A stretch of DNA of 42,573 nt from Limnochordia bacterium (GTDB taxonomy: Bacteria > Bacillota > Limnochordia > Darwinibacteriales > DTU012), in assembly GCA_007116145.1 (NCBI GenBank), contig SKJB01000030.1:1-42573 (forward strand). Direction: 5' to 3'. This document shows, in pieces, positions 6,182 to 22,145 of this stretch (its first letter is position 1; the number at the start of each line of letters is the position of its first letter). Under the pieces are notes generated by a model, which ran no database searches, had not been told where the DNA came from, and saw nothing but the letters and a program-made list of their open reading frames with translations. The translations under genes and the position numbers were made by a program.

Positions 6182-8833
6182 ATGAGCAAAAAAATATATG
6201 CGAAGCAACTGATAGCTTGTTTTCGAGAAGATGGATTTCAGCTAGACTTTGATATAGTCGAGAGAACATCAGTTACTACTGCTAACGAAGAATCGGAACA
6301 GAAAATCTATGAAGAATCTTTGGCAGACCCATATAGAATGCTCTTTTATCTTGGGTGTACGGAGGATGGAATCGAGTGGTCTGCTTCTTTGGCATTTCTA
6401 CATAAGATTGCAGTTAGATTTATACAAGGGCTAGCGAAAACACCAGATATTGAGGAAATCCGCGAGGAGACACGGATTTCGCCGACTGAGCCTGAAATTA
6501 TCGATATTTTAGCGAGTGTTCCCTATGCGATTGGAATTGAATATATCGACGCGAATTGGATCAAACGGATCTATAAGCATTTGTCTACTGTGTTTACAGT
6601 GGAAATTAGGAGCTTTTCAGGGACTGTCAGTGAGTTTTTATTGCAGCATAACGCAAAAATTAACATTTTCGGTAAGGTCTTCTTCCATTTAGTTGAGAAT
6701 AAGTCGGATAGCTATCCGTTTGCATTTTTGGCAACCTACAGCACGGGAAAACTTCAAGACAAAAAAGCTGTTCATACACCGCTTAAAAATGCACTGCTTG
6801 AATTTAAAGGCCGGCATGATTTATTATTACAGTTACTATCCACTGTGAGCAAGGCAGCCCAAACGAGTGAGTTTATCTCGGAGTTCGTTGAGAGTGGTGA
6901 ATTGTTTAGTCCACTAAAGTTTACAAGTCGCGAAGCGTATACGTTTCTTAAAGAGATACCGCTTTATGAACAATGTGGTATTCTTTGCCGTATGCCTGAC
7001 TGGTGGAAAAAAAGTAGCCATTCGTTTAGACTCTCCGTCAAGGTCGGCGATAGAGAACCATCAAGGGTGGGTATGGATGCACTGCTTAGTTTCAGTCCAG
7101 AATTGTATTTTGGTGAAGAGAAAATTACGGAAGAGGAGTTCCGATCGTTAGTAGCGCAAACAAGTGGTCTGTCGTTTATTAAAGGTAAATGGGTCGAGGT
7201 GGATCATGAAAAGCTACAAGCAACACTAGAAGCGTATGAAAATGCTAAGAAGTTATCAGATAACGGCGAATACAGTATTGCAGAGGCGATGCGTATCCAG
7301 CTAAATGCTGCTACACTGCTTGGCGTAAACGAAGACGCTGTTAACTTGGAGGTTTCTAATGGGGAGTGGTTAAATACGGTTACTGCAAAACTCACTAACC
7401 CCACCTTAATTGCGAATACTGCAACGAGCGATGACTTTCGAGCAACTTTACGTGCATACCAGCAAAAAGGCTTTGATTGGCTAAATTATATGAAGACTCT
7501 CGGTTTTGGAGCCTGCCTTGCTGACGATATGGGACTTGGGAAAACGGTGCAAATTATTGCGCTGCTAGAACATATGAGGGTTCAGGCAAGTAATAGATCG
7601 CTGTTAATTATTCCTGCGTCATTAATGGGTAATTGGCAAAAAGAACTAGAAAAGTTTGCGCCAATGCTAAACTACAAGCTTGTTTTTAGTAGCAAGGATA
7701 AGCTGGATTTGAGCAGAGTTGAGGGTACAGACTTGTATATAACAACATACGGAATGGTAGCACGACTTGATGCGCTTAGAACCGTAGAGTGGGATTTAGT
7801 AATTCTCGATGAAGCGCAGGCTGTCAAAAATCCAGGTACGAAGCAAACTAAAGCGGTGAAGCAACTACATGCACGGGCAAGGATAGCGATGACAGGGACA
7901 CCTATTGAGAATAGTTTGTCGGATTTGTGGTCACTTTTTGATTTCCTTAATACAGGGCTACTTGGCTCTGCAAAAGAGTTTAAGCTGTTTACCAAAGGTT
8001 TAAAAGAGAGCAAATCCGATTATGCAAAGCTGCGGAGTGTTGTTAGTCCATTTATTTTGCGGCGATTAAAAACGGATAAAACAGTAATCGCTGATCTACC
8101 GGAAAAAATGGAAATGAAAGCATATGCAACCCTTACAAAGAAGCAAGTTGTATTATATACTAGCTTGGTCAAGGAGTTAAAAAAGAAATTAGAAGTCGCT
8201 GAAGGCATTGAACGCAAAGGACTGGTTTTGGCTAGTATTATGAAATTCAAACAGATTTGTAATCATCCTGACCAATATTTAGGTCAATCTGAATTCCTAT
8301 ATCAACATAGCGGTAAGTATGAACGATTGTCTCATATTTGTGAAACCATCTACAAAAAGCGAGAGCGAGTGCTTGTCTTTACGCAGTTTAAGGAAATGAC
8401 CAAACCGCTATCCGACTTTCTTACGCAGATTTTTAAGCGTGAAGGACTTATTTTACATGGACAAACACCAGTGAAGAAGCGAGCAGAACTTGTGGATAGA
8501 TTTTGTGGCGAAGAATATGTTCCCTATATGGTTCTATCGTTAAAAGCTGGTGGGGTCGGACTAAATTTAACGGCTGCAAATCATGTAATCCATTTTGATC
8601 GTTGGTGGAATCCTGCTGTTGAGAATCAAGCGACTGACCGGGCTTTTCGGATTGGCCAACAAAAAAATGTGATGGTGCACAAATTCATTACCTCTGGTAC
8701 AATTGAGGAGAAAATTGATATGATGATTGAGGACAAAAGTAAGCTAGCTAGTGACATCATCGCGTCGTCAAAAGAGAATTGGATCACTGAACTTGATAAT
8801 AACCAGTTATTAGAGTTGTTTACATTGGTATAG
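6182..8833 (+). CDS. SNF2-family DNA-dependent ATPase/helicase (YwqA-like)
   Basis: This 883-residue protein has an N-terminal region of about 420 residues containing the SNF2-associated domain (DUF3670 type; ALLSFSPELYFGEE and GKWVEVD near 300-342). The SNF2 ATPase core follows: motif I DDMGLGKT (448-455), motif II DEAQ (543-546), motif III MTGTPIENS, and motifs V-VI GGVGLNLTAANHVIHFDRWW followed by ENQATDRAFRIGQ. All ATPase motifs are intact. Such proteins translocate on DNA and remodel protein-DNA complexes; the bacterial role is poorly known. The next gene encodes a SWIM zinc-finger protein 13 bases downstream, the same pairing as B. subtilis ywqA-ywqB. Start ATG follows GGGGAAG. Confidence 0.93.
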   Translation: MSKKIYAKQLIACFREDGFQLDFDIVERTSVTTANEESEQKIYEESLADPYRMLFYLGCTEDGIEWSASLAFLHKIAVRFIQGLAKTPDIEEIREETRISPTEPEIIDILASVPYAIGIEYIDANWIKRIYKHLSTVFTVEIRSFSGTVSEFLLQHNAKINIFGKVFFHLVENKSDSYPFAFLATYSTGKLQDKKAVHTPLKNALLEFKGRHDLLLQLLSTVSKAAQTSEFISEFVESGELFSPLKFTSREAYTFLKEIPLYEQCGILCRMPDWWKKSSHSFRLSVKVGDREPSRVGMDALLSFSPELYFGEEKITEEEFRSLVAQTSGLSFIKGKWVEVDHEKLQATLEAYENAKKLSDNGEYSIAEAMRIQLNAATLLGVNEDAVNLEVSNGEWLNTVTAKLTNPTLIANTATSDDFRATLRAYQQKGFDWLNYMKTLGFGACLADDMGLGKTVQIIALLEHMRVQASNRSLLIIPASLMGNWQKELEKFAPMLNYKLVFSSKDKLDLSRVEGTDLYITTYGMVARLDALRTVEWDLVILDEAQAVKNPGTKQTKAVKQLHARARIAMTGTPIENSLSDLWSLFDFLNTGLLGSAKEFKLFTKGLKESKSDYAKLRSVVSPFILRRLKTDKTVIADLPEKMEMKAYATLTKKQVVLYTSLVKELKKKLEVAEGIERKGLVLASIMKFKQICNHPDQYLGQSEFLYQHSGKYERLSHICETIYKKRERVLVFTQFKEMTKPLSDFLTQIFKREGLILHGQTPVKKRAELVDRFCGEEYVPYMVLSLKAGGVGLNLTAANHVIHFDRWWNPAVENQATDRAFRIGQQKNVMVHKFITSGTIEEKIDMMIEDKSKLASDIIASSKENWITELDNNQLLELFTLV

Positions 8834-8846
8834 GCGGTGGGAATGA

Positions 8847-9557
8847 ATGGCATACTTTCCAAAATATGTGCCTGTTGCAAAAAGGAAGAAAAAAGCACAA
8901 GCGCTAGTCTCGAAGCTAAAAAAGAAAAATCCAGATTTAGCACCGATTATAATAACGGGAAATAGCATTGCGACCATGTGGTGGGGTAAAGCATGGAATA
9001 AGAATCTGGAGATTTATGCTGATTACTCGAATAGAATTTCGCGCGGGCGGAGTTATGTAAGAAATGGCGCTGTCATTGATTTGCAGATTAAAACAGGAAT
9101 TGTGCAGGCTCTTGTGCAAGGAAGTGAGGGGGAACCGTATAGAATAGAAATAAAAATAGCGCCGCTTTCAAAGGAGAAGTGGGATAGTCTATTAGCGTTA
9201 TCTAATCAGAAAATAGATAGCATTGCAGAACTTCTTGAGGGAAAATTCCCTCGGGAACTTGAAGAAATTTTTTTGCTGAAAGGAAGAGGTTTATTCCCCA
9301 CACGTAAAGAAATAGAGTTTAACTGTAGTTGTTATGATTGGGCGAATATGTGTAAGCATGTGACCGCTGCCTTATATGGGATTGGTGCGCGGTTCGATGA
9401 AGACCCCACGTTGTTTTTTACACTACGTAGTATTGAATTCGAGGCATTAGTGAAGAAAACAATTGAGCAAAAAATGCAGAGTATGCTTAAGAATTCGGGT
9501 AAAAAGAGTTGTCGTGTGCTTGATGATACGGATGTTTTTGAGTTGTTTGGAGTGTAG
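8847..9557 (+). CDS. SWIM zinc-finger protein (YwqB-like)
   Basis: This 236-residue protein starts with a basic segment (AKRKKKAQALVSKLKKK). It carries a SWIM-type zinc motif CxCx6CxH with C160, C162, C169 and H171 in the context FNCSCYDWANMCKH. SWIM domains are thought to mediate DNA or protein contacts. In many bacteria a SWIM protein is encoded beside an SNF2 ATPase, and the two are presumed to act together. Here the spacing is only 13 bases, so co-translation is likely. An overlapping ATG at 8843 is in another frame and opens nothing. A small ORF with an excellent ribosome binding site follows 23 bases downstream without an intervening terminator. Confidence 0.88.
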   Translation: MAYFPKYVPVAKRKKKAQALVSKLKKKNPDLAPIIITGNSIATMWWGKAWNKNLEIYADYSNRISRGRSYVRNGAVIDLQIKTGIVQALVQGSEGEPYRIEIKIAPLSKEKWDSLLALSNQKIDSIAELLEGKFPRELEEIFLLKGRGLFPTRKEIEFNCSCYDWANMCKHVTAALYGIGARFDEDPTLFFTLRSIEFEALVKKTIEQKMQSMLKNSGKKSCRVLDDTDVFELFGV

Positions 9558-9580: not shown

Positions 9581-9685
9581 ATGACCCAACGAGTACTATC
9601 CAATGGTGAAGAAGGGAACTGCCTTACATGTGTAGTTGCAAGCGATCACCAGTCTAACGATTTTGCGGTTCAGCGTTATGGATAA
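9581..9685 (+). CDS. 34-residue small ORF, translationally coupled leader of the next gene
   Basis: ATG at 9581 follows AGGAGG (9567-9572) with 8-base spacing, the best ribosome site in this stretch. The frame encodes 34 residues (start MTQRVLSNGEE, with a CLTC motif at 14-17) and stops at TAA 9683-9685. The stop overlaps the ATG (9678) of the solute-binding-like gene in the arrangement ATGGATAA, as expected for translational coupling. The downstream gene has no good ribosome site of its own, so the small frame probably delivers ribosomes to it. I do not recognise the peptide. It could be functional, or could be the remnant N-terminus of a formerly longer gene after a frameshift. Confidence 0.6.
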   Translation: MTQRVLSNGEEGNCLTCVVASDHQSNDFAVQRYG

Positions 9686-10931
9686 GCAAAGGCTAAAGAT
9701 TTGGATGATTGTTTCAACGAATGTCGATGAGCGCTCGTTTTTTCGTCAAGAGTTTCAGCAATTAGAACGCTTGCTTGGTCTAAGGATTGAGTTACGGTTT
9801 TTAAGTTGGAGACGAGCTTATGGTAGTCTCGTTAAAGCATACAAAGAGAATGAAACACCTGATATTTTTGGGTTAGGAAGCACTTGGGTTCATCCCTTTG
9901 CTTATCTTGGATATTTAGATCCTGTACCCCAGTCTTTTCGAATGCAGCAAGTGTTGGCTCCGTGGATTACTAAGTGCATCTTTTACCAGAATCGTCAATA
10001 TGCAGTGCCTTTAACGGCTGAATCCATGGCGCTAATGGCAAGGGCTGATGTATTAGATGCACTCAACGTGAACGCACAAGATTTAAGACATTGGAGTGGG
10101 CTTTTGGATACTTGTAAATACCTAGCTTCTCTTCCTGAAACGGATCGAGAGAAACTCAATTTTCAAACTCCTATGGCTTTTCCTATTCGGCCAGAGATAG
10201 GTACATTTCATCGCTGTGCTGCTTGGATGATGAGAGAAGGGTGGCAGTTTCCAGATCTATCGTCACTACCCTCTACCCTCTTTGCTGATCAGGTTTGTCT
10301 CAACGTGTTTCAGCAGATTGGTTTGCTATTTCAAGCGTGCCACTCAACGGTGGATGAAGCTCGACTCCATCCACTAATGATGTACGAACGGTCTTTACCC
10401 ACCAATCAATATGTATTTTATTTAGGTAATGGTTCAGAAATTGTGGTAGATACCTTAGATAAAGATAACCTGAACCATGGGGATTTGATTGCACTTCCAC
10501 TTCCAAGTTTGTCGGGTAGTCAGGGTGGCTACGGTGGAGGTACAGTTCTATGTGTTTCAGCACGATCAAAAATTAAGAACATTGCTTGGCAAGGGATTGA
10601 ATATATGCAAAGCGATAGGTTCATCAGTAAACTAGCAGAGGTTTCTGGGCTTCTTCCTGCCTATAAATGCAAATTTTGGGAACGGAATCGCTCCAATCCA
10701 CAAATTAGTTTTTTAGAGTCGCAGATTCGCGAAAGTGTCTCTTACTCATTTCATCCTATCTGGAGAGCTGTAGAGGATGCACTTGGGACACAAGTGTCTC
10801 AATTATTATGGAATCTCTTACAATCGCCATCATCCTTTGATAAACGGAATTTATCTGATGCTCTTGTGCAATTTGATGAGCATATTCAGTATGTACTTCG
10901 TATGGCTTGGGAGTTGTATGACCATGACTAA
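9678..10931 (+). CDS. Solute-binding-protein-like protein without signal peptide
   Basis: This 417-residue protein resembles family 1 extracellular solute-binding proteins of carbohydrate ABC transporters. It opens directly with the first mature beta strand (LKIWMIVSTN), then shows PDIFGLGSTWVHPFAYLGYL (61-80), the family hallmark near the hinge, and later a VSGLLPAYK segment also typical of the family. No hydrophobic leader or lipobox precedes it, and no permease or ABC ATPase gene is nearby, so it should be cytoplasmic and act as a ligand sensor, not a transporter part. The ATG at 9678 overlaps the stop of the small ORF; an alternative TTG at 9636 lacks a ribosome site. Its end overlaps the GGDEF/HD-GYP gene by 14 bases. 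Confidence 0.75.
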   Translation: MDKQRLKIWMIVSTNVDERSFFRQEFQQLERLLGLRIELRFLSWRRAYGSLVKAYKENETPDIFGLGSTWVHPFAYLGYLDPVPQSFRMQQVLAPWITKCIFYQNRQYAVPLTAESMALMARADVLDALNVNAQDLRHWSGLLDTCKYLASLPETDREKLNFQTPMAFPIRPEIGTFHRCAAWMMREGWQFPDLSSLPSTLFADQVCLNVFQQIGLLFQACHSTVDEARLHPLMMYERSLPTNQYVFYLGNGSEIVVDTLDKDNLNHGDLIALPLPSLSGSQGGYGGGTVLCVSARSKIKNIAWQGIEYMQSDRFISKLAEVSGLLPAYKCKFWERNRSNPQISFLESQIRESVSYSFHPIWRAVEDALGTQVSQLLWNLLQSPSSFDKRNLSDALVQFDEHIQYVLRMAWELYDHD

Positions 10932-12843
10932 TGCTTTAGGTAGCCAAAAAGCACTACAGATATGCGTGAAAACCAGTGAGATTTTCTCTAATCTAAATTC
11001 TTTGAATGTAAGCTATGAGGAACTTGGGTTATTTCTCTTTCAACAGTTACGATCCTGCTGTGAGCAACTTCGGTTATATGTAGTCAATAATCACGGGGAA
11101 TACCAAGAGGAAGTAGTATGTAGTGATAGCGGTGTTTACCAGGGTTTTGATATTATACCTAAGTATCAATTGCCGGATCAGCTTCTAGAACACCAAGAGC
11201 CTGTCTATCATACCCGGAATAATCTTCACCTTACAGTTGTTCCTTTAACTTTAGCCTCTGATAGTATGCTTGTGGGTTTTATCGAGTTGCGTAGTCATAA
11301 TCCGTGGAACAAGCGTACTGTAGCTACAATTCAAAGGGTTGGACAGACCATAGCTTTAGGGATTTCCTATGGCAAATTAATTCGAGATGATCAGAAAATC
11401 AGGCGTTTTATTAGTAGAACCGCGTTATTAACAGAGCACTTACATCATAATCAGACAGTCGATGAATTGGTCAATGTTTTCTTGAGTGAGACGGTTAATC
11501 ATCTAGAGTTTGATCGGGTAACTATACATATCTATGGTGATCGACCAGGTGAAAACTTAATTAGCCGTTGTGCAATATCTACAGGGCAGATGTTTGATCT
11601 ACATAAGCATCCACTACATGCATTTAGTGAATCGAAGAGTGTATCCAGCGAGAAAGCCCTCTTTTTTCACTTAGCGACTCATTCTAGTGTAATCGGAGAA
11701 GTATTGTTTGACAATTTGTATTCCCAATTTATGATTCCGAATAATTATCGGGAAATGCTTATCCCATTATGCAATAGTTTTGCGGCCACTATTGATAACA
11801 TTCGACTGCTAAAGAACGCTGAACGCTCAGCGCAAATCGATGGTTTAACGAGCCTTTATAACAGAACCTATTTTGAAACACAGCTATCTCGCGTTGCGAC
11901 GGAGGGAATTTTACCGTTTTCAATTATTATTGGTGATGTAAATGGTTTAAAAATTACAAATGACGTTTTTGGTCATTTAGAAGGCGATAAGATACTATTA
12001 GCGATTAGTAAAATTCTTAGATCGAGTTGCAGTGATTCCGACGTCGTTGCGCGTTGGGGTGGTGATGAATTTATTATTTTATTACCTGGTTCCACCTGTG
12101 ACCAAGCCCAAATAATATGTGATGCTATTCAAGAAAAGTGTACACAAGTAAACTTGGATACAGTCCGATTATCTCTCTCGCTAGGATGTGCTACACAGTA
12201 CGAACGAGAGGATGATGTTAGTGCGACAATTAAGCGAGCGGAGAGTTTAATGTACCACAATAAAATGCAGGATCGTGAGGGTTTTCGTAAGTCTTTTTTA
12301 CTATCGTTACAAAGGAAGTTACACGAGAAATGCTTCGAATCGATGGATCACATTAGACGTATGGATACTCTAGCTACAGAGCTTGGACGATTCCTCCGGT
12401 TGAGCCTGGCGCAAATCAAGGACTTACAACTTTTGGTAATGCTACATGATATTGGCAAGGTGACGATTAGCCAGGATATTTTGGGGAAACCAGCAGATTT
12501 ATGCGAGGAGGAATGGATTGAAGTTCGCAAGCATCCAGAGTTTGGCTATCGTATTGCTCAGACTTCGGCTGAACTAGCGCCCGTTGCCAATGATATTCTC
12601 TGTCACCATGAGTATTGGAATGGAGAAGGGTATCCTTTTGGTAAGAAAGGAACAGAGATTCCACTTTTGGCGCGGATTGTGGCGATTATTGATGCATACG
12701 ATGCCATGACGAACGATCGACCCTATCGAGAGGCGATTTCGCATGAAGAAGCACTCTTAGAACTAATTCGCTGCTCGGGATCTCAGTTTGATCCTAATTT
12801 CGTCAATGCTTTTTGTGTTTTGTTTAAAGAGTCACCTTTTTAG
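10918..12843 (+). CDS. GAF-GAF-GGDEF-HD-GYP dual cyclic-di-GMP enzyme
   Basis: The protein has 641 residues. Two GAF-like segments (about 15-150 and 165-300) precede a GGDEF domain with the intact signature RWGGDEF (GGDEF 381-385). An HD-GYP domain follows with HD at 510-511 (MLHDIGK), HHEYWNGEGYP (563-573) and DAYDAMTNDRPYR. Both catalytic motifs look intact, so it could make and degrade c-di-GMP. The RxxD inhibitory site expected five residues before GGDEF reads SDSD, so product inhibition is probably absent. No membrane helix is seen. The start is ATG 10918 or 10924, because GGGAG lies just upstream; frames opening further upstream overlap the previous gene heavily. The overlap with the solute-binding-like gene implies the two proteins work together. 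Confidence 0.92.
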   Translation: MTMTNALGSQKALQICVKTSEIFSNLNSLNVSYEELGLFLFQQLRSCCEQLRLYVVNNHGEYQEEVVCSDSGVYQGFDIIPKYQLPDQLLEHQEPVYHTRNNLHLTVVPLTLASDSMLVGFIELRSHNPWNKRTVATIQRVGQTIALGISYGKLIRDDQKIRRFISRTALLTEHLHHNQTVDELVNVFLSETVNHLEFDRVTIHIYGDRPGENLISRCAISTGQMFDLHKHPLHAFSESKSVSSEKALFFHLATHSSVIGEVLFDNLYSQFMIPNNYREMLIPLCNSFAATIDNIRLLKNAERSAQIDGLTSLYNRTYFETQLSRVATEGILPFSIIIGDVNGLKITNDVFGHLEGDKILLAISKILRSSCSDSDVVARWGGDEFIILLPGSTCDQAQIICDAIQEKCTQVNLDTVRLSLSLGCATQYEREDDVSATIKRAESLMYHNKMQDREGFRKSFLLSLQRKLHEKCFESMDHIRRMDTLATELGRFLRLSLAQIKDLQLLVMLHDIGKVTISQDILGKPADLCEEEWIEVRKHPEFGYRIAQTSAELAPVANDILCHHEYWNGEGYPFGKKGTEIPLLARIVAIIDAYDAMTNDRPYREAISHEEALLELIRCSGSQFDPNFVNAFCVLFKESPF

Positions 12844-14249: not shown

Positions 14250-14331
14250 TGCAGTGAAGTTGATTTGCAGGTGATAGTACTTAGATGACGAAGTTAATAT
14301 GATAAGATTCAGGAATTTAAGGAGGATTCTC

Positions 14332-16029
14332 ATGCCACCTAGAAAACGTTTAGGCGACATTCTCCAGGATAATGGTTTGCTTGATGAACAACAATTACAA
14401 AAAGGTCTAGAAATGCAACGTAATTCAGGAGAAAAACTTGGGGAAGCGCTAGTAAAACTAAAGATTGTCACATCGGAACAGATAGCCAATGCTTTAAGCG
14501 AGCATTTAGGTGTAGAACGTGTTAATTTTGCAAGAAGATATATACCCAGTGAAACAGTTAAGTTGGTGCCAGAAGAAATACTAAAAGAATTTAAGATAAT
14601 GCCGATTGAGCTGAACGGCAGCAATTTAACTGTGGCTATGGTCGATCCTTTGAATATATTGATTATTGATCGTTTACAAGAGATAACTGGTTTTTCAATA
14701 ACTCCTTTAATAGCAACTTCATCCGAAATTGATGAGGCGATACAACGAACTCGAGACATTGGCATTTCTGCTAATAAGGTGTTTGCAGAATTTGGTCACG
14801 ACGAGATTCTCGATGACAAACAGGACACGGAGCAATTAATTGGTGATGCCCCTGGAGTTAAATTGGCTAATATGATACTCCAACAAGCCATTCGCCAAAA
14901 AGCTAGCGATATCCACTTTGAACCACGGGAAGAGGATTTGCGAGTGCGGTTTCGTGTGGATGGAATTATGCAGGATATTATGGTGGTTCCAAAATCCTTA
15001 CGGACTGATGTTAATTCTCGCATAAAAATTATGTCCAATCTTGATATTACAGAACGCCGTAAGCCTCAAGATGGACGGATCCAAGTCGCCCTTGAGGGTG
15101 GCGAGGTCGATATGCGGATTTCCACATTACCAACCATGTATGGAGAGAAAATTGTAGCTAGAGTACTAAATAAATCTGATCAGATGTTAACCATTGAGGA
15201 TTTTGGCTTTGAGGATAGCTCAAAAGAAAAATTGTATCGGATATTGCGGCAAAATCAAGGATTAATTCTTGTAACAGGTCCTACAGGTAGTGGTAAAACC
15301 ACGACTCTTTATGGCTTTCTCGCACATTTAAATACACCAGAGAAGAATATTATTACTGTCGAAGATCCTGTTGAATATCGCTTAGATGGAATTAGTCAGG
15401 TACAAACGAATGCAAAAGTAGGGCTAAGTTTTTCTGTCGGACTGCGTTCGGTACTCCGCCAAGATCCAGATACGATCATGGTGGGTGAGATACGCGACGG
15501 CGAAACTGCTGAAATTGCGATTCGTGCAGCACTAACGGGACATTTAGTTTTAAGCACTTTACATACAAATAGTGCAGTTGCATGTATTGCTCGGTTGAGC
15601 GATATGGGAATCGAACCCTATATGCTAAGCTCAACGATTACCGGAGTAATAGCGCAGCGTTTAGTTCGGACGATATGCAGCGAGTGTAAGGAATCCGTTC
15701 CCTTAACAGACCCTATCATGATTCGCTTCATTCAATCGTTACATGTTCCAGTCCCTGACCATGTGTACCAAGGACGTGGATGCCCAGTTTGTAACAATAC
15801 TGGTTATCGTGGTCGAGCAGCACTTGAGGAAGTCTTATTGCTAAATCGCGAATTGCGGCAAGCGATCGATCAACGAGCAACCGAGCTAGAAATGGAGGAT
15901 ATCGCAATCAAGTCCGGGTTTGTTAGCTTACAAACCAATGCTGTCCGGAAATTAATTGCAGGTATTACTTCGGTTGCTGAGATAATCCGAACAGTGTATA
16001 GTGTAGACGAAGAGGAGGCGTTTTTGTGA
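14332..16029 (+). CDS. pilB: Type IV pilus assembly ATPase PilB
   Basis: This 565-residue hexameric ATPase drives pilus extension at the inner face of the membrane. An MshEN-type N-terminal domain (about 5-62) has two related halves starting RLGDIL and KLGEAL, the pattern linked to c-di-GMP binding in MshE/PilB proteins. The secretion ATPase core has ASDIHFEP (201-208), Walker A GPTGSGKTT (326-334), an Asp box and Walker B MVGEIRD (393-399). A zinc site has four Cys at 459, 462, 494 and 497. ATG 14332 follows AAGGAGG by 6 bases; an upstream in-frame start at 14299 has no such site. The end overlaps pilT by 4 bases (GTGA). Confidence 0.96.
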   Translation: MPPRKRLGDILQDNGLLDEQQLQKGLEMQRNSGEKLGEALVKLKIVTSEQIANALSEHLGVERVNFARRYIPSETVKLVPEEILKEFKIMPIELNGSNLTVAMVDPLNILIIDRLQEITGFSITPLIATSSEIDEAIQRTRDIGISANKVFAEFGHDEILDDKQDTEQLIGDAPGVKLANMILQQAIRQKASDIHFEPREEDLRVRFRVDGIMQDIMVVPKSLRTDVNSRIKIMSNLDITERRKPQDGRIQVALEGGEVDMRISTLPTMYGEKIVARVLNKSDQMLTIEDFGFEDSSKEKLYRILRQNQGLILVTGPTGSGKTTTLYGFLAHLNTPEKNIITVEDPVEYRLDGISQVQTNAKVGLSFSVGLRSVLRQDPDTIMVGEIRDGETAEIAIRAALTGHLVLSTLHTNSAVACIARLSDMGIEPYMLSSTITGVIAQRLVRTICSECKESVPLTDPIMIRFIQSLHVPVPDHVYQGRGCPVCNNTGYRGRAALEEVLLLNRELRQAIDQRATELEMEDIAIKSGFVSLQTNAVRKLIAGITSVAEIIRTVYSVDEEEAFL

Positions 16030-17066
16030 AAGTAGCTGATAGTATTCAACTTTTACTAGAGATTGCTGTTGACCAAAGGGCATCCGATCTACATTTATCC
16101 CCAGCTGTACCACCGAGTTTACGCATATATGGGGAGATGGCTCCCATTGAAGGTATAGAGCCATTGCGACCGATTGTGATTGAAAATCTCATCAAAACGA
16201 TTGTCTCCGATCCAAACTGGCAGCAATATCAAGCGACAGGCGAAGTGGACTTTTCCTATGGTATTCCTGGACTTGGTCGTTTTCGTTGTAACGTCTATCG
16301 CCAACGTGGTTCTATTTCCGCAGCAATCCGTGTGATCAATTCGACTGTATTATCCTTTGATCAGCTAGGTCTACCCGATGTTTTGGAGGAATTGTGCCAG
16401 AAGCGGGATGGATTGGTGCTAGTAACTGGACCGACTGGCAGTGGTAAGTCAACAACTCTTGCTTCCATGATTGACTTGATTAACAAGAAACGGCGCGGTG
16501 TTATAGTAACGCTAGAAGATCCGATTGAATACTTACATCAACACAATCGTTGTATTGTCAATCAGAGAGAAATCGGATCAGACACGAATTCTTTTGCAAA
16601 TGGATTGCGTGCAGCTCTACGAGGAGACCCTGACGTTATATTAGTAGGAGAAATGCGCGATTTAGAAACGATTCAAACTGCCATTACCGCAGCAGAAACT
16701 GGTCACTTGGTATTTTCAACACTACATACTCGCAGTGCTGCGAAAACTATTGATCGAATCGTCGATGTCTTCCCAACCCAAAATCAACAACAAATTCGAA
16801 TTCAATTAGCTTCGGTATTAGAGGCTGTAATATCACAACAGCTGATCCCTCGTAAGACGAGTAAGGGAATGGTCCCAGCAATTGAGGTTATGATTGGTAC
16901 TCCAGCGATTCGCAATATGATTCGAGATGCCAAGACACATCAAATACCCAGTGTGATTGAAACTGGGTCGCGATTTGGAATGCAAACAATGAATTCGGCC
17001 TTAGATGGTCTCGTTATGCTTGGGCATATTGATCCAACGGAAGCGGAGTTACGCCGAAACGTTTAA
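16026..17066 (+). CDS. pilT: Type IV pilus retraction ATPase PilT
   Basis: This 346-residue ATPase powers pilus disassembly and twitching. It shows RASDLHLS (18-25), Walker A GPTGSGKST (135-143), VTLEDPIEY (Asp box), RGDPDVILVGEMRD (Walker B) and HTRSA (His box). AIRNMIRD near the C-terminus corresponds to the AIRAGE-region helix of PilT. The start is GTG at 16026, overlapping the pilB stop, so the two are translationally coupled. The PilB-PilT-PilC order is standard for Bacillota pilus clusters. Presence of a retraction motor argues for dynamic pili, not only a DNA-uptake pseudopilus. Confidence 0.95.
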   Translation: MKVADSIQLLLEIAVDQRASDLHLSPAVPPSLRIYGEMAPIEGIEPLRPIVIENLIKTIVSDPNWQQYQATGEVDFSYGIPGLGRFRCNVYRQRGSISAAIRVINSTVLSFDQLGLPDVLEELCQKRDGLVLVTGPTGSGKSTTLASMIDLINKKRRGVIVTLEDPIEYLHQHNRCIVNQREIGSDTNSFANGLRAALRGDPDVILVGEMRDLETIQTAITAAETGHLVFSTLHTRSAAKTIDRIVDVFPTQNQQQIRIQLASVLEAVISQQLIPRKTSKGMVPAIEVMIGTPAIRNMIRDAKTHQIPSVIETGSRFGMQTMNSALDGLVMLGHIDPTEAELRRNV

Positions 17067-17085
17067 GAGTAGGGTGGTTGGTTGT

Positions 17086-18291
17086 ATGAGGAAATTCCAG
17101 TACAAAGCAAAAAATCGTTTAGGACAAGCTGTCTCAGGTGTCTACGAAGCCGAATCACGAGAAATAGCAGTTGATAATCTGCGTCAGCAAGGTTTTTTTA
17201 TTACTGTCATTAAGGAAGCGGCGCAACCTGCAACGGCTAATTTATTTGGAGCACGCGGAAAACTAAAAGCAAAATTTCTTGCTTTGTTTTGTCGTCAATT
17301 TGCGTTACAACTTGGAGTCGGTTTATCATTGGTCCGTAGTTTACAATTACAGCAAGAACAAGCACCGGATATCCGTTTAAAAAAGGCCTTAGAGCAGATT
17401 CGCTTAGAAGTCTCTAGTGGAACGCCATTCACGAAAAGCTTGGAGAAGCACAAAAGTCTTTTTCCTCACGTCTTTATTCACTTAGTCGAAGCAGGGGAAA
17501 TTGCTGGAGCATTACCGGAAGTACTCGATCGCCTAGCCATCTACTATGAGCGTGAGGATGAGTTACGGAAAAAAGTATCAGAAGCTTTAATGTATCCTGC
17601 AATCATCTCGACGGTAGCAGTAATAATGGTATTTTTGCTCGTTTTTTTCGTGCTACCGATGTTAATTGGTAATTTCGCAAGTTTTGGGGTTCAACCACCA
17701 CCCCTAACGCAAGCTGTGCTTGATGCTCGTTTGGTTTTAATCCAATACTGGTATGTTTTTCTTGCTAGCATTGTTGGTTTCGTCTTTCTGATAAAATGGT
17801 ACATTAATACCGCGAGTGGTAAACTGAAGATACATCGACTCACTTTGATTTTACCTATCCTAGGTGCGCTCCAAAAAATGGTGATTTACTCACGGTTTTG
17901 CCGTACACTTAGTCTGATGCTCAGTAGCGGTATCTCTATGATCCAATCGCTGCAAATCCTAGAACGGCTAATTGATAATAAAGTGATTCAAATCGCCATT
18001 AGTGAAGCAAGGCATGGCGTGGAAAAAGGACAAGGTCTCAGTGGTCCATTAGCAAATCATAGAGCATTTACACCGATGTTGGTACAAATGTTTGCGATTG
18101 GCGAAGAAACAGGGAGTTTAGAGGACGTCCTTGTGCAACTAGCTGACTATTATGATCGAGAAGTTAACTATGCGGTGTCCAGTTTTACAAAGCTGCTAGA
18201 GCCTATCGTTATGATAGTTCTTGCTGTTGTGGTATTGTTTATTTTATTATCGGTTTACTTACCAATGATGCAGATGGTAACTGCTTTGTAA
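17086..18291 (+). CDS. pilC: Type IV pilus inner-membrane platform protein PilC
   Basis: This 401-residue polytopic protein anchors the PilB/PilT motors. It opens with FQYKAKNRLGQAVSG and a short N-terminal domain, then two T2SSF repeats (about 65-190 and 270-395). Each repeat ends in hydrophobic helices (190-215, 228-250, 370-395). Motifs include the conserved EAGE-type VEAGEIAGALPEVLDRL and IGEETGSLEDVL. ATG 17086 follows AGGGTGG by 8 bases and lies 19 bases after pilT; the longer frame from 17005 would overlap pilT and lacks a ribosome site. Confidence 0.94.
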   Translation: MRKFQYKAKNRLGQAVSGVYEAESREIAVDNLRQQGFFITVIKEAAQPATANLFGARGKLKAKFLALFCRQFALQLGVGLSLVRSLQLQQEQAPDIRLKKALEQIRLEVSSGTPFTKSLEKHKSLFPHVFIHLVEAGEIAGALPEVLDRLAIYYEREDELRKKVSEALMYPAIISTVAVIMVFLLVFFVLPMLIGNFASFGVQPPPLTQAVLDARLVLIQYWYVFLASIVGFVFLIKWYINTASGKLKIHRLTLILPILGALQKMVIYSRFCRTLSLMLSSGISMIQSLQILERLIDNKVIQIAISEARHGVEKGQGLSGPLANHRAFTPMLVQMFAIGEETGSLEDVLVQLADYYDREVNYAVSSFTKLLEPIVMIVLAVVVLFILLSVYLPMMQMVTAL

Positions 18292-18303
18292 AGGAGTGAT
18301 ATT

Positions 18304-19335
18304 ATGGTAAAAAGTTGCTTAGGACTCGACATTGGTCATGCAACCATTAAGCTAGTTGAGGCCCAGCGAAAGGGCAAAGGCGTGGTCATAACTCGCTACG
18401 GTTCAATACCTACACCAGAAAAATCGTACCTAAAAAGTAAAATCCTAAACGTCGACGGTATTGCACAAAGCGTACGGACGCTTGTGAAGAATATGGGTAC
18501 GACGACGAAATCGGTATGTCTAGGTTTAACAAGTTCAGAGATTGTTATTAAAACAATTACTATGCCTAATATGCAAACGAAGGAATTAGAGCAAGCCTTG
18601 GAATTTGAGTTACACGACCATGTCGGTTTTGCTTATAACAGTCCGAAGGAAGTAGCGTTTAGTTATGATGTGATGCATAAAGATGCAACCCAACAAACTA
18701 TCTTACTCGTGGCTTGTAAACGTGAAGTCATTGAGCCTTATATGAGTATTGTTGATAAAGCTGGATTGGATCTAGCCATCATAGATATTCAAGCTTTAGC
18801 ATTACCGCGGGTCAGTCCTCAAATAAGAAGTAGTTGCTTTATTGACATTGGGAGCTTACAAACTACGATTTACATTCAACAAAATGACGAGTTCAAAGTG
18901 TATCGGATACTCCCCCTTGGTATGGAGCACCTAATCAACGGACTATCGGAGGCATACTCGGAGCAGTATGCGCAAAGTAAAGCCTTGTTATTTAAGGAGG
19001 ATATCTCTGACTTAATGACCAATGGTACTGGTACAAAAGGTACACTCAGAGCCTTTATTGGCCAGCTAGTCGGTGGAGTGCTCCAAACTCTTGATTTCTT
19101 TCGAGCTCAAGAACGAGCTAGTAATATTGATGAAGTGCTAGATAGTGTGTGCTTAGTAGGTGGTGTTGCCCATGTCAAAGGCATAGACAAATTATTAAAC
19201 GAAGAAGTGGATATTAGCGTAGAGGTGTTAAATCCATTTACTGTAGTTGGTTGCACCCCAGACATGGTTGCACCTCTCGACTACGCAACCTATGCATCAG
19301 CTACTGGGTTGGCTATTAGGGGGTTAGAGCAATGA
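18304..19335 (+). CDS. pilM: Type IV pilus actin-like protein PilM
   Basis: This 343-residue cytoplasmic protein has an actin-like fold. It begins with the nucleotide-binding loop LGLDIGHATIKLVE and later has FIDIGS and CLVGGVAHVKGI (second phosphate and adenosine segments). PilM docks on the short N-terminal tail of PilN and links the alignment complex to the motors. ATG follows AAGGAGTG by 5 bases. The stop overlaps the pilN start (ATGA). Confidence 0.93.
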   Translation: MVKSCLGLDIGHATIKLVEAQRKGKGVVITRYGSIPTPEKSYLKSKILNVDGIAQSVRTLVKNMGTTTKSVCLGLTSSEIVIKTITMPNMQTKELEQALEFELHDHVGFAYNSPKEVAFSYDVMHKDATQQTILLVACKREVIEPYMSIVDKAGLDLAIIDIQALALPRVSPQIRSSCFIDIGSLQTTIYIQQNDEFKVYRILPLGMEHLINGLSEAYSEQYAQSKALLFKEDISDLMTNGTGTKGTLRAFIGQLVGGVLQTLDFFRAQERASNIDEVLDSVCLVGGVAHVKGIDKLLNEEVDISVEVLNPFTVVGCTPDMVAPLDYATYASATGLAIRGLEQ

Positions 19336-19862
19336 AGATCAATCTTCTCCCTGCTGAAAAACGACCGTTGCGTTCGAATCAAATTCGATGGGAATTTGTG
19401 ATACTGCTGATTACATTTTTAGGGTTTACTGCCATCACCGCTTTTAGCTTCCTTGAACGATCCAATCTAGACTCTCTTCAACATGAATTCGATGGACTGG
19501 TGCAGTATCGGAGTATTCTCCAATTGCAGAGAGCCAGGGCTGAAGAAATGCAGGCCGAAGTTAGCGCCATTAAAGCAGAACATGCACGGATGACCAAAAT
19601 CTTAAAAAAATCCGAGGATGGATTTACAATTTCGTTGTTAGACCAAATCCAAGCTAGTGTTATGCAAGATATTTATTTTGAGCGATTTGTTAAGAGTACT
19701 TCAGTCGTTGAGTTGCGTGGATACACGGAAAATTTGACATCACTTACACAATTTATTCAGCGTCTTGAGGATTTTGGTAATGGAACACGCATCCGCGATC
19801 TTCGTCATGACGAACGTCATCCATTTTTGCGTTTCTATCTAGAAATTGAAAGGAGACGCTGA
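19332..19862 (+). CDS. pilN: Type IV pilus alignment protein PilN
   Basis: This 176-residue protein begins MKINLLP, matching the INLLP motif that in PilN binds PilM. A single membrane helix (about 21-43) is followed by a coiled segment (50-95) and a periplasm-type ferredoxin-like domain. It overlaps pilM by 4 bases and lies 2 bases ahead of the next gene. Fold, size and position support the call; sequence conservation beyond the first residues is low, as usual for the family. Confidence 0.88.
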   Translation: MKINLLPAEKRPLRSNQIRWEFVILLITFLGFTAITAFSFLERSNLDSLQHEFDGLVQYRSILQLQRARAEEMQAEVSAIKAEHARMTKILKKSEDGFTISLLDQIQASVMQDIYFERFVKSTSVVELRGYTENLTSLTQFIQRLEDFGNGTRIRDLRHDERHPFLRFYLEIERRR

Positions 19863-19864
19863 GC

Positions 19865-20704
19865 ATGCAGATCATTTCACAAATAAAGGTATTAAACGAG
19901 CGGATCAGTGTCCTAGTTCTATTTTCTGCGTTCTTGTTTTTATTGTTAACGGTGATCAGTTTTTTTGCATTGTACATGCCGGCCAAAGAGCAAGCAAGTT
20001 TGTTGCAAGAAGGAATCGATCAAGAGCAACGAACCCATGAAATGCTATTGCGTTTACCTGTAAGCACTCCACTGGATTCCAGTGTGCTAAGGGATATAGA
20101 GCAGTATAGACTTCTATTTCCGCAAGTAACGGATTTTCCACTCGTTGTTGCATGGATCAATGATTTCATAAAAACAGGTTTCTTGGAGGGTTTCTTAGAA
20201 TATACACCATTAAGGGTTGACCAGGATTACTTTACGTCTAATCTTAAGTTGCGATTTCATGGCGAGTATGAGCAGTTCCTGCTGTTCGTCAATACATTAG
20301 AGCAGAATTTGCCAAATCTTGCTATCACCTATGTCTCGCTAGAAGTAGATGAAGAGCGTAGACTAGCTGGCTTGGTAGAAATGACTTTGTCTGTATTGCC
20401 CAATTCCAAGCAGTCGAAGCAGGCTTGGCAAGCACGGAAAAATGTGGATTTGACTGATCTTGTTGTCGTTGATAATTTTGGCTATCCTTTCTATATGATT
20501 GAAGACTTTTATAGTAATTCGATTAAAGTTTTAGGGGTCGTCACAGAGGAGAGAACTGCAAGAGTTCTTATTTCTAACGGAAGCCAACAGAACTGGATGC
20601 AAATAGGTGACACACTACGTGGAGGCACAATATCCGAGATTAGTGGGCAAGGCGTATCCGTGCAATTTGGTGGAATTATTATCATGTTACGTATTGGAGG
20701 GTAA
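19865..20704 (+). CDS. pilO: PilO-like protein with PilP-like C-terminal domain
   Basis: This 279-residue protein has one membrane helix near the N-terminus (about 17-40), a coiled segment and a ferredoxin-like PilO domain (to about 180). The last 80 residues add a beta-rich segment (IKVLGVVTEERTARVLISNG, then WMQIGDTLRGGTISEISGQG) resembling the PilP domain, which is a separate lipoprotein in Gram-negative systems. It would form the alignment complex with PilN. AAAGGAG inside the end of pilN serves as ribosome site. The PilP-like assignment rests on pattern (short beta strands, GD plus GxIxxI) and is an inference. Confidence 0.82.
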   Translation: MQIISQIKVLNERISVLVLFSAFLFLLLTVISFFALYMPAKEQASLLQEGIDQEQRTHEMLLRLPVSTPLDSSVLRDIEQYRLLFPQVTDFPLVVAWINDFIKTGFLEGFLEYTPLRVDQDYFTSNLKLRFHGEYEQFLLFVNTLEQNLPNLAITYVSLEVDEERRLAGLVEMTLSVLPNSKQSKQAWQARKNVDLTDLVVVDNFGYPFYMIEDFYSNSIKVLGVVTEERTARVLISNGSQQNWMQIGDTLRGGTISEISGQGVSVQFGGIIIMLRIGG

Positions 20705-20818
20705 GAACATGCATTGGTTCAGCAACTAAGGTGGAGTAACAAGGCGTATCATGATAATGTTAAATCCAGCGTAGAAGTGAGAGTTAAGTTCTGGTAGATT
20801 ACGAAGGAGATGGTATAT

Positions 20819-21364
20819 ATGAAGGCTGGTTCCACAGAATATCAGGTTCACAATTATATGGAAGATATTGTTAAAGAAATTCTCCAGAAGCTGATTAAGA
20901 AAGAGACAGATATTTGCACCTGCACACATTGTCTGGCAGATATGACAGCAAGTGCACTAAATACAGTGACTCCTAAATACGAGACGAGTGGACCTGATAT
21001 GTCTCAACTTGATGAAGACGCTCTGTATGAAGTGATGTCGAAGGTGTATGCAGCTATGGTTAGAGTTAGCAAAAATCCAAGACATGATCAAAATACGTTT
21101 GATCCAGAGGCAGTCCATTTGTATAACCTCAGTGAGGTTTTAGTTAATAACGTGCTTAGTGAGACACTGGCGTCGGATACTAGTGGGCCGACAGACTCTG
21201 AGTATCTAGCAAAGATAGCGTCTATCTGTCTTAACGAGGTCAAACCTCGCTATGCCTTGACAAGAAAGGGTGTATCTTTTCAGCGGTTAGCACAACTCGA
21301 ACATCAGCATTTACCGGATCTCTTAGTTATCATCCATAACGCAATAAAAGCAGTATCGAAGTAA
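20819..21364 (+). CDS. Tandem ComFB-domain protein
   Basis: This 181-residue protein has a first ComFB (late competence development) domain at about 9-85: VHNYMEDIV, the cysteine cluster CTCTHC (C33, C35, C38), then ADMTASALN and TPKY. A second, degenerate copy at about 98-178 keeps LYNLSEVLVNNVL and ICLNEVKPRYALTRKG but has lost the Cys cluster. ComFB proteins are reported as cyclic dinucleotide receptors linked to pili or competence; I recall this from recent work and cannot check it here. The start ATG 20819 follows AAGGAG by 9 bases; the ATG at 20810 sits on the ribosome site itself. The gene lies between pilO and pilD and ends before an 11-bp hairpin. Confidence 0.85.
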   Translation: MKAGSTEYQVHNYMEDIVKEILQKLIKKETDICTCTHCLADMTASALNTVTPKYETSGPDMSQLDEDALYEVMSKVYAAMVRVSKNPRHDQNTFDPEAVHLYNLSEVLVNNVLSETLASDTSGPTDSEYLAKIASICLNEVKPRYALTRKGVSFQRLAQLEHQHLPDLLVIIHNAIKAVSK

Positions 21365-21373
21365 TTTCATGTT

Positions 21374-21404
21374 AAAGCTAGAGCCCGTGAGCTCTAGCTT
21401 TCTA
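21374..21404 (+). terminator. Hairpin between comFB-like gene and pilD
   Basis: A perfect 11-bp stem, AAAGCTAGAGC (21374-21384) with GCTCTAGCTTT (21391-21401), has a 6-base loop. The T tract after it is short (CTTTCT), so it is probably a partial terminator or attenuator that sets pilD expression. It would lie inside pilD if the upstream ATG at 21369 were used, which argues for the start at 21426. Confidence 0.6.
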
Positions 21405-21425
21405 ACTATATGGGAGTTGATTCTG

Positions 21426-22145
21426 ATGGTAACTGCAGCAGTTGCCTTGTTGTTCGGATTTGTTTTAGGTAGTTTCTATAACGTGGTCATTTGGCGGCTT
21501 CCTCGAGGAGAATCGATAATTTATCCTGCTTCTCATTGTTCTAGCTGTCAAACACAATTACAGCCTATTGATCTCATTCCAGTTCTTAGTTTTCTAATGC
21601 AGAGAGGTCGCTGCCGATACTGCCAAAGAGCAATTAGTTGGCAATACCCCGCAGTTGAATTAATGACAGCCACTGGTTTTGCTATTTTTGCTTACTATAC
21701 TAGCGGGTGGCAGATTCTAGTAGGCCTTACCTTGTTTTCCCTTCTCTTTGTGGGATCCGTCATTGATTTACAGCATAAAATAATCCCAAACGTGCTTACT
21801 CTCACTGGAGTGGTTTTAGGTATTTCATTTGCTCTCTTTGGCATTTATATACCTATCATGGATAGTCTCTGGGGTGTGGTTACTGGTGGTGGTATTCTAC
21901 TTTTGGTATCCATCCTATCCGGTGGAGGAATGGGAATGGGTGATGTAAAGTTGTTAGCTATGATTGGTAGCTTTTTGGGTCCGATGGGCAGTTTAATATC
22001 TTTGTTTGTGGGTTCATTAATTGGTAGTATTGTGGGGCTAGTTTATTTAAAAGTGACAAACCAAGACCGGAAGACAGTGATTCCATTCGGACCATTTTTA
22101 AGTATTGGTGGACTCGTTAGCTTTTGGTGGATACTGATTCGCTAA
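21426..22145 (+). CDS. pilD: Prepilin peptidase / N-methyltransferase PilD
   Basis: This 239-residue membrane aspartic protease (A24 family) cleaves and N-methylates type IV prepilins. The N-terminal cytoplasmic loop carries two CxxC pairs (C38/C41 and C63/C66) flanking the methylase-linked domain. The catalytic Asp residues are D114 in SVIDLQHKIIPN and D173 in GMGMGDVKLL. About seven or eight membrane helices are visible. GGGAG at 21412-21416 supports ATG 21426; the in-frame ATG at 21369 lacks a ribosome site and would include the hairpin. No prepilin gene is in the window, so its substrates are encoded elsewhere. Confidence 0.93.
   Translation: MVTAAVALLFGFVLGSFYNVVIWRLPRGESIIYPASHCSSCQTQLQPIDLIPVLSFLMQRGRCRYCQRAISWQYPAVELMTATGFAIFAYYTSGWQILVGLTLFSLLFVGSVIDLQHKIIPNVLTLTGVVLGISFALFGIYIPIMDSLWGVVTGGGILLLVSILSGGGMGMGDVKLLAMIGSFLGPMGSLISLFVGSLIGSIVGLVYLKVTNQDRKTVIPFGPFLSIGGLVSFWWILIR

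Follow-up and report, generated by a model that had tools for sequence, protein, structure and literature searches.

Why would a bacterium encode a sugar-type solute-binding protein (SBP) that lacks an export leader, in a gene that runs into the gene of a c-di-GMP enzyme? This question is raised by the window studied here, the whole 42,573-nt contig SKJB01000030.1 of a Limnochordia bacterium, for which a sequence-only reading had proposed that a binding protein was turned into a cytoplasmic sensor. The features concerned are:

9678..10931, plus strand: leaderless family-1 SBP of 417 aa, the proposed cytosolic ligand sensor
10924..10931, plus strand: 8-nt SBP/effector gene overlap, ATGACTAA (SBP stop, effector start)
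10924..12843, plus strand: soluble GAF-like/signalling helix/GAF/GGDEF/HD-GYP protein of 639 aa, the proposed effector; c-di-GMP synthase and phosphodiesterase by motif
10924..11400, plus strand: N-terminal GAF-like domain of the effector, the proposed docking domain, found only beside leaderless SBPs

The overlap of the two genes is as that reading described it, and translational coupling through it is probable. The SBP reading frame is intact from the ATG at 9678 to the stop at 10931. Its Pfam match is weak (SBP_bac_1, E=0.003, under the curated cut-off), and five SBP relatives match SBP_bac_1/SBP_bac_8 above the cut-offs. The window protein itself matches PDB 7c6f (phmmer, E=1e-13), and a profile of the leaderless family matches solved beta-glucoside/cellodextrin-binding proteins with E=8.5e-49. 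The AlphaFold model (mean pLDDT 88.3, pTM 0.88) is an intact SBP fold, a complete two-lobe flytrap, and the solved structures nearest to it are the Thermus beta-glucoside-binding protein and Clostridium thermocellum CbpB (Foldseek; E ~3e-22, TM ~0.85), in keeping with the sugar-type fold proposed earlier. Thus, although weak by Pfam alone, membership of the SBPs is certain by profile and predicted fold, which both place the protein in family 1 (sugar type). The first beta strand of the model spans residues 5-11, so that only four residues precede it and the earlier remark that the protein begins at its first mature strand is correct. We found no second copy of this SBP in the genome of the window.

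The start of the protein shows no sign of export. Leaders were called by simple hydropathy measures (best 12 residues in the first 40 aa) and by inspection for a lipobox. The window SBP reaches 0.82 and has no lipobox, as the sequence-only reading had held. The same measure gives 2.2-3.6 for leader-bearing transport SBPs of relatives and 2.9-3.4 for SBP_bac_1-matching proteins of the window's genome, all of which have leaders; both sets were limited to proteins whose start is clear. An alternative in-frame TTG at 9636, 42 nt upstream of the ATG, would add LQAITSLTILRFSV; it has no Shine-Dalgarno site, and the extension occurs in no relative. As a signal peptide this extension is ruled out, its hydropathy being 1.5. 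A further feature lies just upstream:

9581..9685, plus strand: 34-codon ORF encoding the peptide MTQRVLSNGEEGNCLTCVVASDHQSNDFAVQRYG, with a strong Shine-Dalgarno site (GGAGG)

The stop of this ORF overlaps the SBP start by 8 nt (ATGGATAA), with the same spacing as the SBP/enzyme overlap, and the ORF may, and probably does, couple its translation to that of the SBP. Its peptide matched no Pfam family. We rejected it as a displaced leader, as it has no hydrophobic core and lies in another frame than the SBP; a Shine-Dalgarno site directly before the SBP start of a relative, RSA5 (described below), also counts against that reading.

A missing leader might result from pseudogenization or a sequencing frameshift in what was once a transporter gene, and the absence of the leader, with nothing further, speaks for such damage. 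We looked to homologues, in a phylum-wide search (one genome per species, a sample of the phylum) and in a search of the class of genome G403, probably Halanaerobiia. We identified ten complete leaderless SBPs in six genomes and, with one more cut by a contig end, the module occurs in seven genomes of four families, which excludes chance; its carriers are several anaerobic bacteria. None of the ten complete SBPs has a leader, a lipobox or a hydrophobic start (hydropathy, first 40 aa). All begin at the same leaderless start with intact frames, so a frameshift in the window is excluded, and a broken transporter gene is refuted to the point of having next to no chance. Leader-bearing close homologues, which the earlier reading had named as evidence against itself, were not found.

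The MAG Clostridia bacterium isolate RSA5 (G041), from the same class as the window, encodes a full-length leaderless homologue of 26% identity whose gene overlaps a GAF-GGDEF gene by GTGA; identity of the window SBP to the other leaderless SBPs is 26-29%. A pattern scan of genome contigs with the window protein alone found no relative, with a two-row alignment it found RSA5 only, and a search of plasmid records for the module found none. The eight further complete copies are in G403, G477, G466 and G468. G403 has four SBP copies at three loci, one of which (L049:4735-7265) places two tandem leaderless SBPs ahead of a single GAF-GGDEF-HD-GYP gene, an arrangement in which a single enzyme could respond to two ligands. 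In G468, two complete modules follow one another. G464 adds an enzyme next to a contig end, where the final bases still code for the C-terminus of an SBP (INQEVRYL, as in G466). The module is absent from 8 other genomes of the window's family and from 36 others of its order, and is thus patchy and not essential.

The SBPs also lack the partners of an importer. The sequence-only reading had seen no ABC permease nearby, and this extends to the entire contig: none of the genome's 20 BPD_transp_1 matches falls on these 42.6 kb. A transporter co-encoded in relatives would have spoken against a sensor, and we saw no importer permease genes at or near any of the relatives' loci. Instead, every leaderless SBP adjoins a GAF-GGDEF(-HD-GYP) gene at a spacing of ~+7 to -19 nt, and most pairs overlap by 4-19 nt. 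The other neighbours vary by locus and include flagellin, a methyl-accepting chemotaxis protein, gamma-glutamyltranspeptidase, a polysaccharide deacetylase and SfsA. At L066:3616-9184 (G477), the module is flanked by a flagellin gene on one side and a second enzyme gene, PAS-GGDEF-HD-GYP, on the other.

In a maximum-likelihood tree, the ten leaderless SBPs form one clade with 100/100 support against 19 leader-bearing transport SBPs. The same separation appears in the scores, with E <=1e-149 for the leaderless SBPs and 2e-55 for the best transport SBP. The link to the enzyme holds in the other direction as well: a profile of the partner's N-terminal domain gave ten matches in 132 genomes, all ten beside a leaderless SBP, the tenth at the contig end that retains the SBP's last codons. 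The SBP is therefore genetically tied to a c-di-GMP enzyme in every copy. Compact operons often have overlapping genes, and the two proteins might merely share a transcript and act independently. We consider this very unlikely given the reciprocal and exclusive linkage across four families in unrelated surroundings. SBP divergence also mirrors that of the partner's N-terminal domain (r=0.83, permutation p=0.0002, nine pairs) and, to a lesser degree, that of GAF2 (r=0.73) and GGDEF (r=0.57); with nine pairs and a signal that is partly shared ancestry, this co-divergence is suggestive only.

The enzyme of the window has intact GGDEF, HD and GYP motifs; the HD-GYP domain is an addition to the earlier reading. 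Two GAF-like domains and long signalling helices precede GGDEF and HD-GYP in the predicted model, which is of moderate quality overall (pLDDT 77) and poor in its HD-GYP part, and the nearest folds are phytochrome-regulated diguanylate cyclases. The RSA5 enzyme (L002:2733-4151) has no HD-GYP and carries an RxxD product-inhibition site; the window enzyme and seven other complete copies have HD-GYP and no RxxD site. That c-di-GMP is limited by two distinct means would be consistent with an SBP that moves the set point of the enzyme.

No transmembrane segment is predicted in the partner. With the SBP lacking a leader and the enzyme lacking a predicted membrane segment, both proteins should be cytoplasmic. 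Alternatively, the SBP might be exported without a leader or by some uncharacterised route and report outside conditions. Almost every characterised SBP works outside the membrane, and a 2022 census of c-di-GMP sensors calls the SBP clan periplasmic, naming SBP_bac_3 as its sole studied member (PMC8846402). However, leaders, lipoboxes and hydrophobic starts are missing throughout the family, the partner lacks a membrane segment with which to take up an outside signal, and the 34-aa upstream ORF ends at the SBP start in another frame, with no hydrophobic core. We regard export as highly improbable. Since no copy has an export signal and all lie beside a c-di-GMP enzyme, the SBP is most likely an intracellular, detachable sensor of that enzyme.

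The binding site can be compared with that of the Thermus beta-glucoside-binding protein (7c63-7c71) and CbpB (7x0i-7x0n), which belong to the same SBP subfamily by profile and fold but serve ABC importers and share ~15-19% identity with the window SBP (Foldseek alignments). Three codons of the window gene correspond to Thermus residues that have been mutated:

9807..9809, plus strand: Trp44, equivalent of Thermus Trp41 (W41A structures 7c6x/7c6y); Trp in 10/10 leaderless SBPs
9885..9887, plus strand: Trp70, equivalent of Thermus Trp67 (W67A structures 7c6z/7c70); Trp in 10/10 leaderless SBPs
10020..10022, plus strand: Glu115, equivalent of Thermus Glu117 (E117A structure 7c71); Asp or Glu in 10/10

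The mutant residues were taken from PDB titles, whose numbering differs by one from that of the construct sequence. We take W41, W67 and E117 to contact the sugar because each has been a target of mutation. CbpB has two tryptophans that stack on glucose units, and its first three subsites are common to the Thermus protein (PMC9601137). The kept W, W, D/E residues, read by analogy with this stacking, make a sugar-type ligand likely for the leaderless SBP. The equivalent of Thermus W177 is not kept, so that the ligand may differ from beta-glucoside. Alternatively, the SBP may be degenerate, having lost ligand binding to become a structural scaffold or protein-interaction adaptor for the enzyme. 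The loss of the leader, the low identity and weak Pfam match of the window copy and the unconserved W177 equivalent all agree with this. We nevertheless think it unlikely, as the two pocket tryptophans and the acidic residue persist in all ten copies and the cleft architecture of the model is complete and of high confidence.

The nearest working analogue is NspS-MbaA of Vibrio cholerae and Sinorhizobium meliloti, in which an SBP homologue signals ligand binding in trans to a c-di-GMP enzyme and does so independently of transport (PMC9993111). The window pair likewise encodes an SBP homologue beside a c-di-GMP enzyme, and trans signalling, known there, is proposed here. NspS, however, is periplasmic and PotD-like (polyamines), whereas the window SBP is leaderless and of the sugar type (family 1); MbaA is membrane-bound, having a periplasmic domain and GGDEF-EAL, whereas the window enzyme is predicted to be soluble, with no membrane segment, and has HD-GYP. 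By this analogy, the window pair would be a soluble counterpart. In the SgrR/DsvR transcription factors, an SBP domain inside the cell is a probable sensor (PMC13060122), a use of the fold that the window SBP may share. There, SBP_bac_5 is fused to a DNA-binding HTH; the window SBP is a separate protein of the SBP_bac_1/8 type, has no HTH and is paired with a second-messenger enzyme.

An SBP fold also provides the input to c-di-GMP output in CdgH and RmcA (PMC5431781, PMC8846402), which belong to the diguanylate cyclases or phosphodiesterases with a fused SBP domain; there the domain is periplasmic and in the same polypeptide as the enzyme, unlike the separate SBP of the window. Control of a c-di-GMP enzyme in trans by a soluble cytosolic protein that reports sugar status is exemplified by EIIA(Glc)-PdeS of V. 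cholerae (PMC8846402), but EIIA(Glc) is a phosphotransfer protein and the window SBP has a ligand-binding flytrap fold. Searches of open-access papers, among them searches for cytoplasmic SBPs paired with cyclases and for Halanaerobium c-di-GMP systems, turned up no account of a module of this kind.

Given the above, we consider it probable that the two proteins are a cytosolic signalling pair, in which the leaderless SBP senses a sugar-like ligand and switches the GGDEF/HD-GYP enzyme in trans. The SBP would stay in the cytosol, where its Venus-flytrap cleft would bind and close on a sugar-like ligand. This ligand is most likely a gluco-oligosaccharide or disaccharide that the cell imports or produces itself. 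One conformer of the SBP may then dock on the partner's N-terminal GAF-like domain. The signalling helices and the second GAF domain would relay the change, which might shift the balance between c-di-GMP synthesis by GGDEF and c-di-GMP breakdown by HD-GYP. In the genome of the window, a possible target of the c-di-GMP output is the type IV pilus machinery encoded downstream.

This pilus operon (window 14299-22145) follows an acetate kinase gene and encodes PilB with an MshEN domain, PilT, PilC, PilM, PilN, ComFB and a prepilin peptidase. It thus carries two kinds of cyclic-dinucleotide receptor, MshEN and ComFB, just downstream of the c-di-GMP enzyme. MshEN domains bind c-di-GMP via two 24-residue motifs (PMC5013675). 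The MshEN domain of the window PilB is recognized with E=5.5e-19; its first motif, RLGDILQDNGLLDEQQLQKGLEMQ, fits except at one position, and its second motif is degenerate. Cyanobacterial ComFB binds c-di-AMP and c-di-GMP (PMC12313861). The acetate kinase gene has a promoter-like site in front and a terminator-like site behind, neither kind exceeding its frequency in shuffles. These sites suggest that the pilus operon has a separate transcript, so that the link to the pilus comes from proximity only; as a lead, a type IV pilus output of c-di-GMP is plausible. A promoter scan of the module region found no more sites than in shuffles, and Rfam gave no match over the window, which therefore has no annotated c-di-GMP riboswitch. 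Directly upstream of the module (window 6182-9557) are a SNF2-family helicase gene and, after it, a gene whose small product has a SWIM-like CxC...CxH motif.

SBPs are generally assumed to work outside the membrane, and genome annotation tends to label any SBP as part of a transporter. If the proposed pairing is true, the flytrap fold has found a second use, as a separate sensor subunit within the cell, and the conserved leaderless clade gives a GAF-like input domain a candidate protein partner. Both proteins are predicted to be soluble, which would make ligand, contact and enzyme activity measurable in vitro. With somewhat less assurance than for the pairing itself, we favor the view that these modules represent a new class of two-protein cytosolic chemosensor, in which the leaderless SBP would be an exchangeable ligand-reading subunit and the intracellular level of oligosaccharides would set c-di-GMP and, with it, surface behavior.
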